From Beijerinckia sp. L45 (lineage in GTDB: Bacteria > Pseudomonadota > Alphaproteobacteria > Rhizobiales > Beijerinckiaceae), in the NCBI RefSeq assembly GCF_009765775.1, contig NZ_LMUU01000001.1:1-64000 (forward strand): DNA of 64,000 bases, given 5' to 3'. The position numbers and the translations under genes were made by a program. Of the stretch, positions 47,502 to 64,000 are shown piece by piece. Position 1 is the first letter of the stretch. Every line of letters begins with the position of its first letter. The notes beneath the pieces are model-generated. The model had not been told where the DNA came from, searched no databases, and saw nothing but the letters and a program-made list of their open reading frames with translations.

Positions 47502-49064
47502 CTAATGCGCTCCGGCCGGCGCGCCCATCGGTCGTGGCTTCTTCAGCAAAAAGATCGCTGATAGCGCCAGGATGAGTCCCACCCCGACGATCCAGAACGC
47601 GTCGGCGTAGGCCGAGACATAGGCCTCGCGGCGCACCTGCGCGGCGAGCGACATGAGAACCCGGCCCTTGGCCACGGCGGGATCGGCGATGGCACTTTGC
47701 ATGCCGGCCATCAGCATTGCGATGCGCTCCTGCGTCCGCGCGGCGTTCTGCGTCATCGCTTCGGCAAGGATAGAGAAGTGGAAGTACTCGCGCCTCTCGA
47801 TCACCGTCGAGAGCAAGGCGATGCCAACGGAGCCGCCGAGATTGCGCATCATGTTCGACAATGCCGAGGCATCCGCCGTGTCGCGCGGCGGCAGGCCGGC
47901 CGTGGACATCTGCGACAAAGGGATCGCAAACAAAGGCTGCCCCGCCGCCCGCAACAGCTGCGGCAGGATCAGCTGATCCATGCCGACGTCATGCGTGAGA
48001 TTTACGTTGATGAAGCAGCTCGCCGCAAACAGTAGGGTACCGGCGATAATCAGCACGCGGGGATCGAAGCGTTTCATCAGAAACGGCATCGCCGGAAACA
48101 GGACAAGCTGCGGCAGCCCGCTCCACATCACGACATAGCCGATCTGCTCGGCGTTGTAGCCCTGGATCTGCGCGCAATAGAGCGGAATGACGTAAGTCGA
48201 GCCGAGAGACACCGCGCCCAGCACCGTCTGCAGGATACAGGCGCCGCCGATCGATCGGTTGCCGAGAACACGCAGATTGATGAACGGCTTTTCGGCCATC
48301 AATTCCCGCGCGATAAAAACGACGATGCCGAGGATCGCGACGATGGTGAGCCGGGCGATCAGATCGGATTCAAACCATTCCTTGCGCTGCCCCTCTTCGA
48401 GCACGACGGTCAGGCTGGAGAGCCCGATCGCCATCGCGCCGACGCCAAACCAGTCGCCCTTCGCCAATTCCGCCCATCGGGCCTGCTGCTTTGGCAAAGC
48501 CGTAAGCTGGCAGAGCACAGCGATCGGACCGGGAATGAGGTTAAGATAGAAAATATAGTGCCAAGAAAAATTGTCAGTGAGCCAACCACCGACGGTCGGC
48601 CCGATCGCCGGCGCGAAGGTCGCGGTGAGGCCGAAGAAGGTGATGCCGAGCCCCTGCTGCGAGCGCGGCAGGCGGGTGCGCAGAATGGTGATCGCGGTAG
48701 GGATCAGCACGCCGCCGGTAAAGCCCTGGCCGGCGCGGAAGATGATCAGCTGCGGCAGCGACGTCGACATCGCGCAGGCGATGGAAAACCCGATGAACAG
48801 CATCGTGTTGATGGAGAGATAACGGCGCAGACCAAATACCGAACCGAGCCATCCCGTCAGTGGGATGACGATGATCTCGGCCATCAGATAGGCCGTCGAG
48901 ATCCAGCTGCCCTGCTCGGGCGAGGCGCCGATCGCGCCTTCGATGTTGGCGAGCGATGAGTTGGTGATCTGGATGTCGAGGATGGCGGTGAAGGCGCCGA
49001 GGATCGCCCCGGCGAACGCCAGCCAGTCGTAAAAACTCGCCTTCGCTTCCGGTGCTGCGGTCAT
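47502..49064 (-). CDS. emrB: EmrB-like DHA2-family multidrug MFS transporter
   Basis: A 520-residue transporter with about 14 hydrophobic segments. DHA2 signatures are present: AILDIQITNSSLANIEGAIG in helix 1, SWISTAYLMAEIIVIPLTGW, RAGQGFTGGVLIPTAITILR (motif C region) and AIGPTVGGWLTDNFSWHYIF. It uses the proton gradient to export drugs through the EmrA adaptor and an outer-membrane channel encoded elsewhere. It overlaps emrA by four bases. It is the second gene of an operon divergent from a TetR regulator. Confidence 0.9.
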   Translation of the reverse strand: MTAAPEAKASFYDWLAFAGAILGAFTAILDIQITNSSLANIEGAIGASPEQGSWISTAYLMAEIIVIPLTGWLGSVFGLRRYLSINTMLFIGFSIACAMSTSLPQLIIFRAGQGFTGGVLIPTAITILRTRLPRSQQGLGITFFGLTATFAPAIGPTVGGWLTDNFSWHYIFYLNLIPGPIAVLCQLTALPKQQARWAELAKGDWFGVGAMAIGLSSLTVVLEEGQRKEWFESDLIARLTIVAILGIVVFIARELMAEKPFINLRVLGNRSIGGACILQTVLGAVSLGSTYVIPLYCAQIQGYNAEQIGYVVMWSGLPQLVLFPAMPFLMKRFDPRVLIIAGTLLFAASCFINVNLTHDVGMDQLILPQLLRAAGQPLFAIPLSQMSTAGLPPRDTADASALSNMMRNLGGSVGIALLSTVIERREYFHFSILAEAMTQNAARTQERIAMLMAGMQSAIADPAVAKGRVLMSLAAQVRREAYVSAYADAFWIVGVGLILALSAIFLLKKPRPMGAPAGAH

Positions 49065-59874: not shown

Positions 59875-60061
59875 AGCCCTTTCGCGAGCCGTGGCATATG
59901 CCGCCTCATTTGCCTTGAAATGCGCTAAGCGGCAGGCGAGTCTTCGCGTCGCCGTGTCAAGCGTGAAGCGGCTTCCGTCTGGGGGCAGACTCGATGACCA
60001 CCTCGCTCGCCTTACATCGCGCGTGCTTCGAGCGCTCCGTTTCAAGGCAGGATGCTGGTGC

Positions 60062-60916
60062 ATGACGGGGCGCCCGTCCGAATGGCCCGTCGAGCGGGTG
60101 ATCGCCATCGTCGGCTGCCAGCGCAGCGGCACGACATTGACCGGCCAGATTTTCGGGGCGCATCCCAGCGCGGTGCTGATCGACGAGTTTGACGGCGTGT
60201 ATCCGTGGTTTCACGCTTTGATGGAGGGCGCGTCCGACAACGATGCCAGCGAAAGGCTCCTCGAGAAGGCCGCAACCAAGTACGGAACGACCGACGATCG
60301 GTTTGTCGCCACACCGAACGGCAAGCGCCTCGCGCGGGACGTCAAGGTCCTGGTTCTGAAGACGCCGAACCTGACCTATGACGAGGAGCGCGTCGCGCGC
60401 ATGCCGTGGCCGGTGACGGTGGTCTATCCCGTTCGCGATCCGCGGGCGGTCGTCGCGTCGATGGCCCGCCTCGAGTCCGTGGATTTCGTCGCCAATCAGA
60501 TCCGGCTTATTGCGCAAAGACCCTCGACACAGGAGCGGTATCGGGCTGCTTTCGCCGTGATGGCGGATGCATCCGCATCCGTATGGACGCGGCGCGCCGC
60601 GCTGTGGCAGATCAAATCCGGGCGGCAAGCGGATTTCGAGCGTGCGGGCTGCTCGGTTCATGCGTTTCGCTACGAAGACCTGGTCGATGATAGCACGGCG
60701 GTGATCGCCGCAATGTTCGCGGCCTGCGGCCTCGGTGATCCACAGGCAGGCTTGGCGGCTCATCTGACCTATGCCGGTATCGGTCCCGGCGGCACGGATC
60801 GAACCCGCCCGATCGACTCGTCGTCCTTGAGCGGCCAGGAGGCGCTGACGTCGGCGCAGCTGGCTGATGTGATGCGGGCCGCCGAACCCCTGGCAGGGCG
60901 GCTTGGCTATGCGTGA
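60062..60916 (+). CDS. sulfotransferase family protein 1
   Basis: A 284-residue protein. The N-terminal 5'-phosphosulfate-binding loop is VIAIVGCQRSGTTLTGQIFG (residues about 14-33). The 3'-phosphate region is TVVYPVRDPRAVVASMARLE. The later FRYEDLVDDSTAVIAAMFAA is a common sulfotransferase element. The acceptor is unknown. It is the first gene of a run of sulfotransferase/glycosyltransferase genes to the right edge and overlaps the next gene by eight bases. Confidence 0.8.
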   Translation: MTGRPSEWPVERVIAIVGCQRSGTTLTGQIFGAHPSAVLIDEFDGVYPWFHALMEGASDNDASERLLEKAATKYGTTDDRFVATPNGKRLARDVKVLVLKTPNLTYDEERVARMPWPVTVVYPVRDPRAVVASMARLESVDFVANQIRLIAQRPSTQERYRAAFAVMADASASVWTRRAALWQIKSGRQADFERAGCSVHAFRYEDLVDDSTAVIAAMFAACGLGDPQAGLAAHLTYAGIGPGGTDRTRPIDSSSLSGQEALTSAQLADVMRAAEPLAGRLGYA

Positions 60917-61748
60917 CGGCATCGGCAACGAATGGTCCATCGACGCGCCGGTGATCCTCCTCGGGCGCGGCGGCAGCGGAACCCGGATGCTGTCCGAAAT
61001 CGCTCGCGGGCTCGGCATTTTCCTCGGCAACCACGTGAATGCCACGGGTGACTCCGTCGAATGGGTCGCGACGCTTTACGAGCTGGCGATCGAGAATCTT
61101 GCCGTCGATGTCCAAAGTGTCCCTGAACAGGAGGCCTGTTGGCGACAAAGGCTTCAACGCTTGGCTGCCGACGTGCTGGCTGTGGACGGTCGTCGCGCGT
61201 CGGATCCCTGGGGATGGAAACTGCCTGAGACGATGCTGGGCCTCGGGCCTATTCTCCGCGCGTTTCCAGCCGCTCGCGTCGTTCATCTCGTCCGGCATCC
61301 CGTGGCGAGCGCGTTGCGGCGCACGCACATGACGTCGCGGATGGACAATCCCATCGGACAAGCCGTGCTGCCGGTCGCCTATCGGTTCTGTGGCCTTGAT
61401 CCGCAGCGCATCGGCGACGATGACGTTCATCTGCATAACGCAGCGACGTGGGCGGTCCAGATCGCCGGCGTGCTCGATGTCATTCGCGTCCAGGAACCGC
61501 GTGTCCTGCAGATCGCCTATGAAGACATGTGTCGCGATCCCCGAGGTACCCAGGTCGCGCTGGCGACTTTCTTGGGTCTCGACGTGCCCGCTCCATCGAT
61601 CGTGCCCGACGTCGACCGCGCGCGGCTCAACGACGGCGCCGGTTGCGACGCCCGCGCGCAACAGGTCTGGTCGATCTGCGGCACCATTGCTGGTGCGCTT
61701 GGTTACGATAGAGACGGGTCTTATCGTCGTCAGGTCATGCTGGCGTAG
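60909..61748 (+). CDS. sulfotransferase family protein 2
   Basis: A 279-residue protein. The 5' loop is a variant (VILLGRGGSGTRMLSEIARG, residues about 15-34), and the 3'-phosphate region is ARVVHLVRHPVASALRRTHM. Further support comes from WGWKLPETMLGLGPIL and LQIAYEDMCRDPRGTQVAL. ATG 60909 lies inside the end of the preceding gene, so the two are translationally coupled. The 3' end overlaps the convergent sulfotransferase gene by 19 bases. Confidence 0.75.
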   Translation: MRDGIGNEWSIDAPVILLGRGGSGTRMLSEIARGLGIFLGNHVNATGDSVEWVATLYELAIENLAVDVQSVPEQEACWRQRLQRLAADVLAVDGRRASDPWGWKLPETMLGLGPILRAFPAARVVHLVRHPVASALRRTHMTSRMDNPIGQAVLPVAYRFCGLDPQRIGDDDVHLHNAATWAVQIAGVLDVIRVQEPRVLQIAYEDMCRDPRGTQVALATFLGLDVPAPSIVPDVDRARLNDGAGCDARAQQVWSICGTIAGALGYDRDGSYRRQVMLA

Positions 61749-62737
61749 ATATCGTTCGCCAGCGTTTCGTGCCGTCGATACGGCTCCGAATCGCGAACCT
61801 CGTCGATCGTCGGCGGTTCTTGCGCCGGCTCTGAAAATCGCAGCGCACCATCGTCTGCGGGCCGGCCGAGCGCTTCGAGCAAGCGCGCATTCGACGATGC
61901 GAAATAGTCGGCCAGAAACGCACGCTCGCGCAAACGCAAGACTTTGGCTTCTGGGCCGCCGAGCCGATCTGCCGCTTGGGCGCTCGCCGCGCGACGACGG
62001 ACGAACGCGGCCAGCGGCGTGTCGGACTCCAAGACGCTGAGATAAGTGAGCTGGTGGAGACTCATCGATTCCCTCTGGCGCGGAATCTCCGCAATGCCGC
62101 TTGGTGTCGGCAGTCCAGCCGCTTTGAAGAAGGATCCGAACAGGTCCGATCGCGCCTCGTCGTAAAGCTGAACGCTGCAATTGCCGAGCGCTTGCCGCCA
62201 TCCATCGAAATGCGCCCACCAGTCCGGGTAGCACAAGCGCTCGGTGTTTCGGCTCAAGGTCACCGCGATGAAACTCGGCAGGTCCTGATGAACGTCGCCC
62301 GTCTTCATCAACTGGTTATGGTAGGACTCAAACCATTGATCCTGCGTGCGGGCGACCAGAACCACGGTGAAATCCGCCGCCGGGAGCAAGTGCTGAAGCC
62401 GCGCCGCATGGGTCGGACGAAAATCCTCGGCCGAAAGGATGAGCGCCTCCTGATCCGGCCGCCAGTCCGCCAGCAGTTCTTCCACGATACGCGCCGGATC
62501 GAGGGCGCGCGAATCGATGTGTGGGAACACACGCTGGAAACTGAGCGTTGGCGCGGCATCGAGAACGGTTGCGAGAAGCTTGGCGTTGCCCGCCATCTGC
62601 GCCACGGCCGGCAGAACGGGAACGAAGATACCCTGCGCGCGCATCGCCGGCGGATCGAGGCGGAGACGCAGCTGAAGATACGTCGAGCCCGTCTTCGGTG
62701 CGCCGACATGAAGAATGATGCGTCCGCGGGATGTCAG
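61730..62737 (-). CDS. sulfotransferase family protein 3, probable CTG start
   Basis: 335 residues if translation begins at CTG 62737-62735. The encoded N-terminus (TSRGRIILHVGAPKTGSTYL) contains the 5'-phosphosulfate loop GAPKTGSTYLQ essential to the family; starting at the first ATG (62644) would remove it. CTG overlaps the stop of the upstream gene as CTGA and has GAAGG seven bases before it. No ATG, GTG or TTG occurs between the upstream in-frame stop and CTG. Other family parts are VVLVARTQDQWFESYHNQLM and LCYPDWWAHFDGWRQAL. Confidence 0.7.
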   Translation of the reverse strand: MTSRGRIILHVGAPKTGSTYLQLRLRLDPPAMRAQGIFVPVLPAVAQMAGNAKLLATVLDAAPTLSFQRVFPHIDSRALDPARIVEELLADWRPDQEALILSAEDFRPTHAARLQHLLPAADFTVVLVARTQDQWFESYHNQLMKTGDVHQDLPSFIAVTLSRNTERLCYPDWWAHFDGWRQALGNCSVQLYDEARSDLFGSFFKAAGLPTPSGIAEIPRQRESMSLHQLTYLSVLESDTPLAAFVRRRAASAQAADRLGGPEAKVLRLRERAFLADYFASSNARLLEALGRPADDGALRFSEPAQEPPTIDEVRDSEPYRRHETLANDIYASMT

Positions 62738-63579
62738 AGCGGGACCTTCATCACGCGTACGGCCGTCGTGCCTTCATAGCGGTGGAGGTAGCCTGGTTCC
62801 AGCTGTGCGGCCTCTGGCGGCACAGGCTGATAGGAATGCCAGATCCGAACGGAGCCACTGATCAACTCGCCGAAGGCTCTGTGATTGAAGCTGGGCGACA
62901 GGGTATATGGATTGAGATCCATCATTTCCATCGCGAGCGTGATGTAGGGCTGGTCACTCCATGTGCGTGTTTCGTCCTTGCTGGCGAGTGCGAGGGCCTG
63001 CTGGAAAACGGACCGCACCTTCGCAACGCGCCAATCGAAGAAGATGACGCCGGAATTGTAGATAACGTGACCCTGCGGCGCCAAACCTTCGCGTTCGAGA
63101 ACGCGCCCGAAACTCCGAAAGTCGGCCAGCGAATAATGTGGCGCCGGCGCCATCGCGATCCCGTATTGCTCGGCCTTGTCGAACCCCAAAGATATGTCCG
63201 CGAGGACGCGCGTATCCACATCCAGAAAGAGCACGGTCCCGAAGGTCTCGGGCAGCGACGCGAAAGCTTCGGCCTTTCGCTCCTTGCTCGAGAAAGCGAA
63301 GTCGCGCCGCAGCACCGCGACACCGGGCGGCAGCATATCCGTCTGGGTGGTTGTATCGGTGATCAGAAACACGGGATAGGGCGGCAGGCGGCTCTCGGCG
63401 ATACATTGCGCTACGAGCGCGACGTGAGAGTCGCCCCAGGCGATGAACAGAATGATACGGGGTTCAACCAACGCTCGATCCTCCCGCCAGCCCGGCACGC
63501 TGCCGCGCCATCTATGGCTCTCAAGTATGAATCCTAACATGCCTGCGTATGACTTGTAATGAAGTGATAAGCGTGGCAT
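62734..63579 (-). CDS. glycosyltransferase-like (nucleotide-diphospho-sugar fold) protein
   Basis: A 281-residue protein. IILFIAWGDSHVALVAQCIA begins the Rossmann-like domain, TVLFLDVDTRVLADISLGFD carries a DxD metal/nucleotide-sugar motif near residue 120, and VIYNSGVIFFDWR plus WSDQPYITLAME follow, as in GT8-like transferases. The donor and acceptor are unknown. ATG 63579 or 63540 may be the start; neither has a clear ribosome site. It overlaps the sulfotransferase gene downstream (CTGA), implying a two-gene operon. Confidence 0.65.
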   Translation of the reverse strand: MPRLSLHYKSYAGMLGFILESHRWRGSVPGWREDRALVEPRIILFIAWGDSHVALVAQCIAESRLPPYPVFLITDTTTQTDMLPPGVAVLRRDFAFSSKERKAEAFASLPETFGTVLFLDVDTRVLADISLGFDKAEQYGIAMAPAPHYSLADFRSFGRVLEREGLAPQGHVIYNSGVIFFDWRVAKVRSVFQQALALASKDETRTWSDQPYITLAMEMMDLNPYTLSPSFNHRAFGELISGSVRIWHSYQPVPPEAAQLEPGYLHRYEGTTAVRVMKVPL

Positions 63580-63693
63580 TCGAAATTTAGATGTGTATGC
63601 ATAATTTGCTTATATACAATAATTAAAGACCAAAGCAGCCTTTCAAGTCGACAAAGGCGCTGTTATTCTCGCTAGGGGCGAGGAATCATCGAT

Positions 63694-64000
63694 ATGAAGC
63701 TGAGTGTCGTCGTAGCCGCTTTCAATATGACCCGCGAGCTGCCGCGCACCATCTTGTCGTTGTCGCAAAAAATGCAACGACACGTTGATGCTGAAGATTA
63801 TGAAGTCATTATCGTCGACAATGGCTCGGATCGGCCCGCGGATCTTTCCGCCTGTATCGATCTCGGCATGAACCTCCGTGTGATCGAGATCCCGCGGCAA
63901 GCCCGCTCGCATTCTCCCGTTCAGGCCTTGAATTACGCAATCAGAGAAGCGCGGGGCGAACTTGTGGGCGTCATGATCGACGGGGCTCGCATGGCGTCAC
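63694..64000 (+). CDS. family 2 glycosyltransferase, N-terminal part (runs off window)
   Basis: Open from ATG 63694 (AGGA upstream) to the right edge, 102 codons seen. The N-terminus KLSVVVAAFNMTRELPRTIL and YEVIIVDNGSDRPADL are the first strands of a GT-A (family 2) fold with the usual VDNGSD motif. ALNYAIREARGELVGVMIDG leads to the expected DxD-region aspartate. It is divergent from the GT8-like gene across a 114-bp AT-rich gap. Confidence 0.8.
   Translation, partial: MKLSVVVAAFNMTRELPRTILSLSQKMQRHVDAEDYEVIIVDNGSDRPADLSACIDLGMNLRVIEIPRQARSHSPVQALNYAIREARGELVGVMIDGARMAS

Follow-up and report, generated by a model that had tools for sequence, protein, structure and literature searches.

An intact sulfotransferase gene in the 64,000-nt stretch of Beijerinckia sp. 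L45 DNA analysed here (the window) probably starts at a CTG codon, CTG 62737 on the minus strand, and would be translated by termination-reinitiation behind the glycosyltransferase gene that precedes it. We favour this reading because the frame is intact and offers no canonical start, the coding extension at its 5' end is conserved, orthologues have an ATG in the same place, and the codon forms a -4 overlap with the stop of the upstream gene. It is weakened by the poor quality of CUG as a start codon, a weak Shine-Dalgarno (SD) sequence, an ordinary RNA structure, the lack of conservation of residues 2-5 and the fact that the CTG form is known from one genome alone.

Open frame, extension and orthologues

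The minus-strand frame spans 61730..62773, comprising 347 codons from stop to stop with no inner stop. As proposed, the gene (61730..62737) extends from CTG 62737 to TGA 61730 and encodes 335 residues. The first ATG, GTG or TTG in the frame is the ATG at 62644 (62642..62644), which corresponds to residue 32. The P-loop GAPKTGST (residues 12-19, within HVGAPKTGST) is encoded by bases 62704..62681 and is thus upstream of this ATG. All codons between the upstream stop and 62644 were listed, and the list bears out the statement in the first-pass annotation that no ATG, GTG or TTG lies ahead of the P-loop. The near-cognate codons preceding the P-loop are AGG 62773, ACG 62758, CTG 62737, ATC 62719 and ATT 62716; those within or after it, and before 62644, are AAG, ACG, ACG and CTG 62671. 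CTG 62737 (62735..62737) is the sole NTG between the upstream in-frame stop and the P-loop. Gene callers are expected to pick 62644, since it is the first ATG, GTG or TTG, and automatic annotation probably gets the start of this gene wrong. For a working enzyme, a start at 62644 was rejected: it would take away the first strand, the P-loop and the following helix of the structure model (see below), along with four of the seven columns found invariant among 21 homologues (H10, G12, K15 and Q22; alignment A3). No ATG, GTG or TTG is therefore able to yield the conserved protein.

Homologues were collected by scanning 43 loci (L002-L011, L017-L049) with one motif expression, which gave 24 distinct matches. 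Three of these were left out: the copy in the window itself, L032, which is truncated at the edge of its locus, and L005, whose domain lies within a longer frame. L011, which had been collapsed with L007 as a duplicate, was restored, for a total of 22 homologues; the count covers loci whose P-loop fits the motif expression. Six loci (L009, L019, L021, L033, L034 and L046) presented several candidate starts, of which one was chosen each; the choice for L019 is the annotated CDS. Row L002 of alignment A1 lacks its first Met by the coordinates used.

The closest orthologues are those of Methylocella tundrae (L007) and of a member of the same genus by family search (L011, g40), with 50 and 51% identity overall. 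The first-pass annotation had proposed asking whether relatives have ATG or GTG at the position of the CTG. In a gapless alignment, the ATG of both orthologues faces CTG 62737 (MNNIPRIVIHVGAPKTG and MNNIPRIIIHVGAPKTG versus LTSRGRIILHVGAPKTG). The P-loop, whose absence from relatives had been named as a possible objection, is present in them. Between codons 6 and 31, 20 of 26 residues (L007) and 21 of 26 (L011) are identical. Base differences in this interval fall at third positions in 13 of 22 cases versus L007 and 14 of 22 versus L011, and the changed codons are synonymous in 11 of 17 and 11 of 16 cases, respectively. By this pattern of substitution, the extension before 62644 is coding sequence. 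Its codon-usage score is 6.4 in its own frame, compared to -8.3 and -11.7 in the other forward frames and to 0.4, -17.0 and -8.3 on the reverse strand, with the proviso that the frame scored belonged to the training set.

All 22 readable homologues, Methylocella included, have an ATG (19) or a GTG (3) 6 to 16 codons ahead of the P-loop glycine. CTG 62737 lies 11 codons ahead of it, exactly as the start does in the Methylocella genus. The CTG thus sits at the start position of two orthologues from one genus. Being closely related to one another, these two amount to about one observation. Since residues 2-5 show zero identity to the orthologues, the exact first codon is assigned from equal length and not from conserved residues. 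Of the earlier proposal, then, the part that places the start upstream of 62644 has good support, and CTG 62737 as the start codon itself is the best reading, though unproven.

Fold and distribution of the product

In a 21-sequence alignment, H10, G12, K15 and Q22 are invariant and T16 nearly so; further downstream, R130 is invariant and S138 nearly invariant. The P-loop is likely the 5'-phosphosulfate-binding loop, and we take the later Arg/Ser pair (R130/S138) to be the 3'-phosphate site. The structure model (mean pLDDT 87.6, pTM 0.86) has a strand at residues 5-11, a loop at 12-17 and a helix at 18-25, so that the P-loop is preceded by the first strand and runs into the helix. Among the matches listed (VIA), the closest solved fold is the Alicyclobacillus acidocaldarius sulfotransferase, PDB 3rnl (Z 16.9, rmsd 3.6, 222 aligned residues, 20% identity over the structural alignment, starting from residue 3), and the 50 structural matches listed are sulfotransferases or sulfotransferase-fold domains. 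No substrate is inferred from 3rnl. A profile of the 21 homologues matched solved sulfotransferases in the PDB, again with 3rnl as the best (E 3.2e-11). A single-sequence search of the PDB returned two BurrH chains only (E 0.0013, residues 16-66), which were taken as chance matches. The score against Pfam PF17784 (Sulfotransfer_4), 17.9 bits, is below the gathering cut-off of 22.8, and NCBIfam returned no family for any of four proteins. As modelled, then, the protein is of sulfotransferase fold, over most of its chain, and falls in no curated family. With its N-terminal P-loop and later Arg/Ser pair, it is best explained as a predicted sulfotransferase of the PAPS-dependent type. From the neighbouring genes, one might guess that the enzyme's role is to sulfate a surface glycan.

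Relatives of the protein are sparse. The search of the window's family found the gene in 3 of 397 genomes, namely its own and both Methylocella-genus genomes; the order-level search likewise gave 3 of 397 including the window's own, with the other two at 28-32% identity. The family of Methylocella tundrae yielded 2 of 297 genomes. One relative was found among 23 pattern-matched stretches in the genome-contig search, none among five viral contigs, and five records at 23-27% identity in plasmids. None of the three other genomes of the window's genus carries the gene. In one of the loci examined (L005, 481-2355 (+)), a sulfotransferase domain lies behind about 340 other residues in a 625-codon frame resembling a sugar transferase.

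These data bear on the possibility of a recent loss of the start codon, by indel or substitution, that left a young pseudogene or only an inactive product made from 62644. The gap in the genus would fit such a loss, as it suggests that the gene may be dispensable, and so would the lack of a canonical start, the inefficiency of CUG and the weakness of the SD sequence. On the other hand, all 335 codons are intact at 50-51% identity to the orthologues, the catalytic-site columns are retained, and the four genes beside it in the cluster have matches too; the counterpoint is a weak one, since a very recent loss would look identical. We regard a lost start as unlikely.

Overlap with the upstream stop

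Bases 62737-62734 on the minus strand read CTGA. The TGA (62734..62736) closes the upstream glycosyltransferase frame and has two bases in common with the CTG. The two genes are co-directional and their stop and start overlap as NTGA, as do the coupled pairs at -4 described in PMC12548453, PMC10666635 and PMC6728339; in the portions of this literature cited here, -4 is the commonest overlap motif. The present pair differs in that N is C, the overlap being given as ATGA or GTGA in the relevant part of PMC10666635, and in that coupling is read from the sequence. The window contains four other canonical -4 starts (GTGA 25693, ATGA 38666, GTGA 44637 and ATGA 53715) among 17 close co-directional pairs, as defined by a crude gene caller. 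The first-pass annotation had presented the CTGA as a copy of such couplings. The CTGA and the four canonical couplings are real, but the argument is mostly automatic: the overlap alone is weak evidence because every TGA-ended gene has an NTG at -4. The base preceding the TGA is C in 7 of the 18 TGA-ended called frames. The four couplings show only that -4 coupling occurs in the window.

A single different base at 62737 would make this a normal coupling, and A, G or T would all be synonymous in the upstream gene (CTA, CTG and CTT, like the present codon, specify leucine). The assembly could thus be in error at base 62737, or the base could differ from strain to strain, the true codon being ATG, GTG or TTG; the window belongs to an assembly of 277 contigs. 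However, no other signs of error are seen nearby, the five surrounding frames being open and aligning with Methylocella tundrae, and substitution errors in consensus sequences are rare. We consider a wrong or variable base quite unlikely.

A GAAGG motif (62745..62749) is present inside the upstream gene, seven bases before the CTG, where the first-pass annotation had placed it. Its value as support did not survive a control with random sites: the duplex energy of -4.2 kcal/mol, computed against an assumed anti-SD tail, is reached at 36% of 2000 random window positions, and the SD was discarded as an argument for the CTG start. For comparison, the median for the best of the first three starts in 46 called frames is about -5.8 kcal/mol. 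An SD above background is thus not found before the downstream start, a feature that does not strictly define -4 pairs; the SD contribution at such pairs varies, according to the section of PMC6728339 relied on here. No unusual RNA structure was found around the start, folding being no better than that of shuffled sequences (z 0.45, both stretches).

ATC 62719 and ATT 62716 (62714..62719) are of the same duplex energy class (-3.2 kcal/mol), and translation from either of these near-cognate codons would retain the P-loop. Yet they lie five and four codons before the P-loop glycine, closer than the start of any of the 22 homologues, and they fall inside the strand at residues 5-11, which would be truncated in the model. 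They are also 15 and 18 bases beyond the upstream stop instead of on it. Initiation at either codon appears very unlikely.

The upstream gene (62734..63471 (-)) encodes a GT8-like glycosyltransferase, although its match to Pfam GT8 is below the cut-off. It is 63.5% identical over 241 residues to the corresponding neighbour in Methylocella tundrae. Its start is probably TTG 63471, with GGGAGGA seven bases upstream, and not the first ATG at 63579; it is from the TTG onwards that the protein resembles its Methylocella tundrae counterpart. Five genes form a cluster common to the window (59891-61748 (+) and 61730-63999) and to Methylocella tundrae (L007 308-5374). Identities are 63.5% for the glycosyltransferase, 51.1% for the sulfotransferase, 49.5 and 52.5% for two further sulfotransferases, and 48.0% for a GT2, the last over 100 residues, the window ending there. 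The L007 and L011 clusters likewise consist of the glycosyltransferase, the sulfotransferase, two more sulfotransferases and the GT2 (48-63% identity). They differ in the arrangement of the gene pairs, which diverge in Methylocella tundrae and converge here, and in that the sulfotransferase ATG comes seven bases after the upstream stop. The cluster may be mobile, the gene being absent from the three other genomes of the genus. Beside the Methylocella cluster is an open-ended frame (L007 6394-6990 (+)), which we take to resemble an IS256-type transposase. Elsewhere in the window, a 307-codon frame at 48036-48959 (+) shows codon use like that of coding sequence, lacks a Pfam match and contains no ATG, GTG or TTG ahead of codon 174; it may be merely a shadow frame.

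The two frames differ by -1 exactly at the CTGA, and longer multidomain proteins with a sulfotransferase domain exist (L005), as would suit a -1 frameshift immediately ahead of the TGA that fuses glycosyltransferase and sulfotransferase; this is barely credible, considering that the bases ahead of the stop contain no repetitive slip site, that in the Methylocella-genus orthologues the two proteins are encoded by separate genes, with a stop and an ATG of their own and the same KVPL at the end of the upstream protein, and that the window's glycosyltransferase has no BLAST match in L005 or L006.

Probable initiation on CUG and its implications

In the termination-reinitiation reading, a ribosome finishing the glycosyltransferase at TGA 62736-62734 would remain on the message, slip back over the shared bases and re-initiate on the CUG with initiator tRNA. 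The sulfotransferase would then start with methionine despite the CTG codon. We infer that the CUG is read as a start codon and that coupling compensates for its poor quality, raising its efficiency at this site. Searches for a changed initiator tRNA and for the 16S tail gave no matches to the patterns used, a result without weight given that such genes may be absent from an incomplete assembly and that the patterns may be off.

Two histories can be envisaged for such a start. In the Methylocella-genus orthologues, seven bases lie between the upstream stop and the ATG, and 22 bases separate the stop from the first conserved codon, versus 11 here. The former ATG may have been lost in an indel that accounts for the 11 missing bases, after which the NTG contained in the neighbour's stop was the only start left. 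Alternatively, a normal NTGA may have become CTGA through a silent substitution in the leucine codon of the upstream gene (CTA, CTG or CTT to CTC). Both histories are reconstructions, and both fit the data. The more specific proposal that the neighbour's stop supplied the start after an indel took the ATG, in-place re-initiation making even a CTG sufficient, is one that we advance tentatively and hold to be doubtful.

Initiation at CTG is rare but documented in bacteria. In an E. coli reporter, CUG works at 0.86% of AUG, and it makes up 0.024% of bacterial initiation codons (both as quoted in PMC11497404). Applied to some 5,500 genes (estimated from 5.67 Mb), the latter figure gives about one CTG start per genome. 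Switches to CUG were reconstructed for 2 of 61,358 AUG, 1 of 5,080 GUG and 1 of 2,468 UUG starts (PMC5622118, in the portion cited), and 4 CUG codons occur among 26 newly found N-terminal forms in Salmonella (PMC11005335, likewise). As far as these excerpts go, the CUG-initiated genes of the three papers resemble the present one in having CTG where relatives have ATG; they were established by multi-genome reconstruction or by ribosome profiling with proteomics, whereas the present case comes from one genome and homology. Judged by titles and the openings of abstracts, none of the papers listed in a search on CTG-started sulfotransferases and Methylocella concerned a bacterial case. The sulfotransferase is thus a plausible addition to a class of starts that is rare but known.

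What is known of bacterial start codons is left unchanged, CUG starts being already on record. The gene would provide a concrete example of an annotation error, as a start at the first ATG would lose the enzyme's cofactor-binding loop. If the CTG reading is true, the orthologues' ATG seven bases past the stop would be set against a CTG placed on the stop in the present lineage, and this contrast would offer a clean natural setting in which to ask if start-codon choice is relaxed by termination-reinitiation. If, in addition, the start came from the neighbour's stop, CTGA couplings would constitute a hidden class, invisible to annotation limited to ATG, GTG and TTG.
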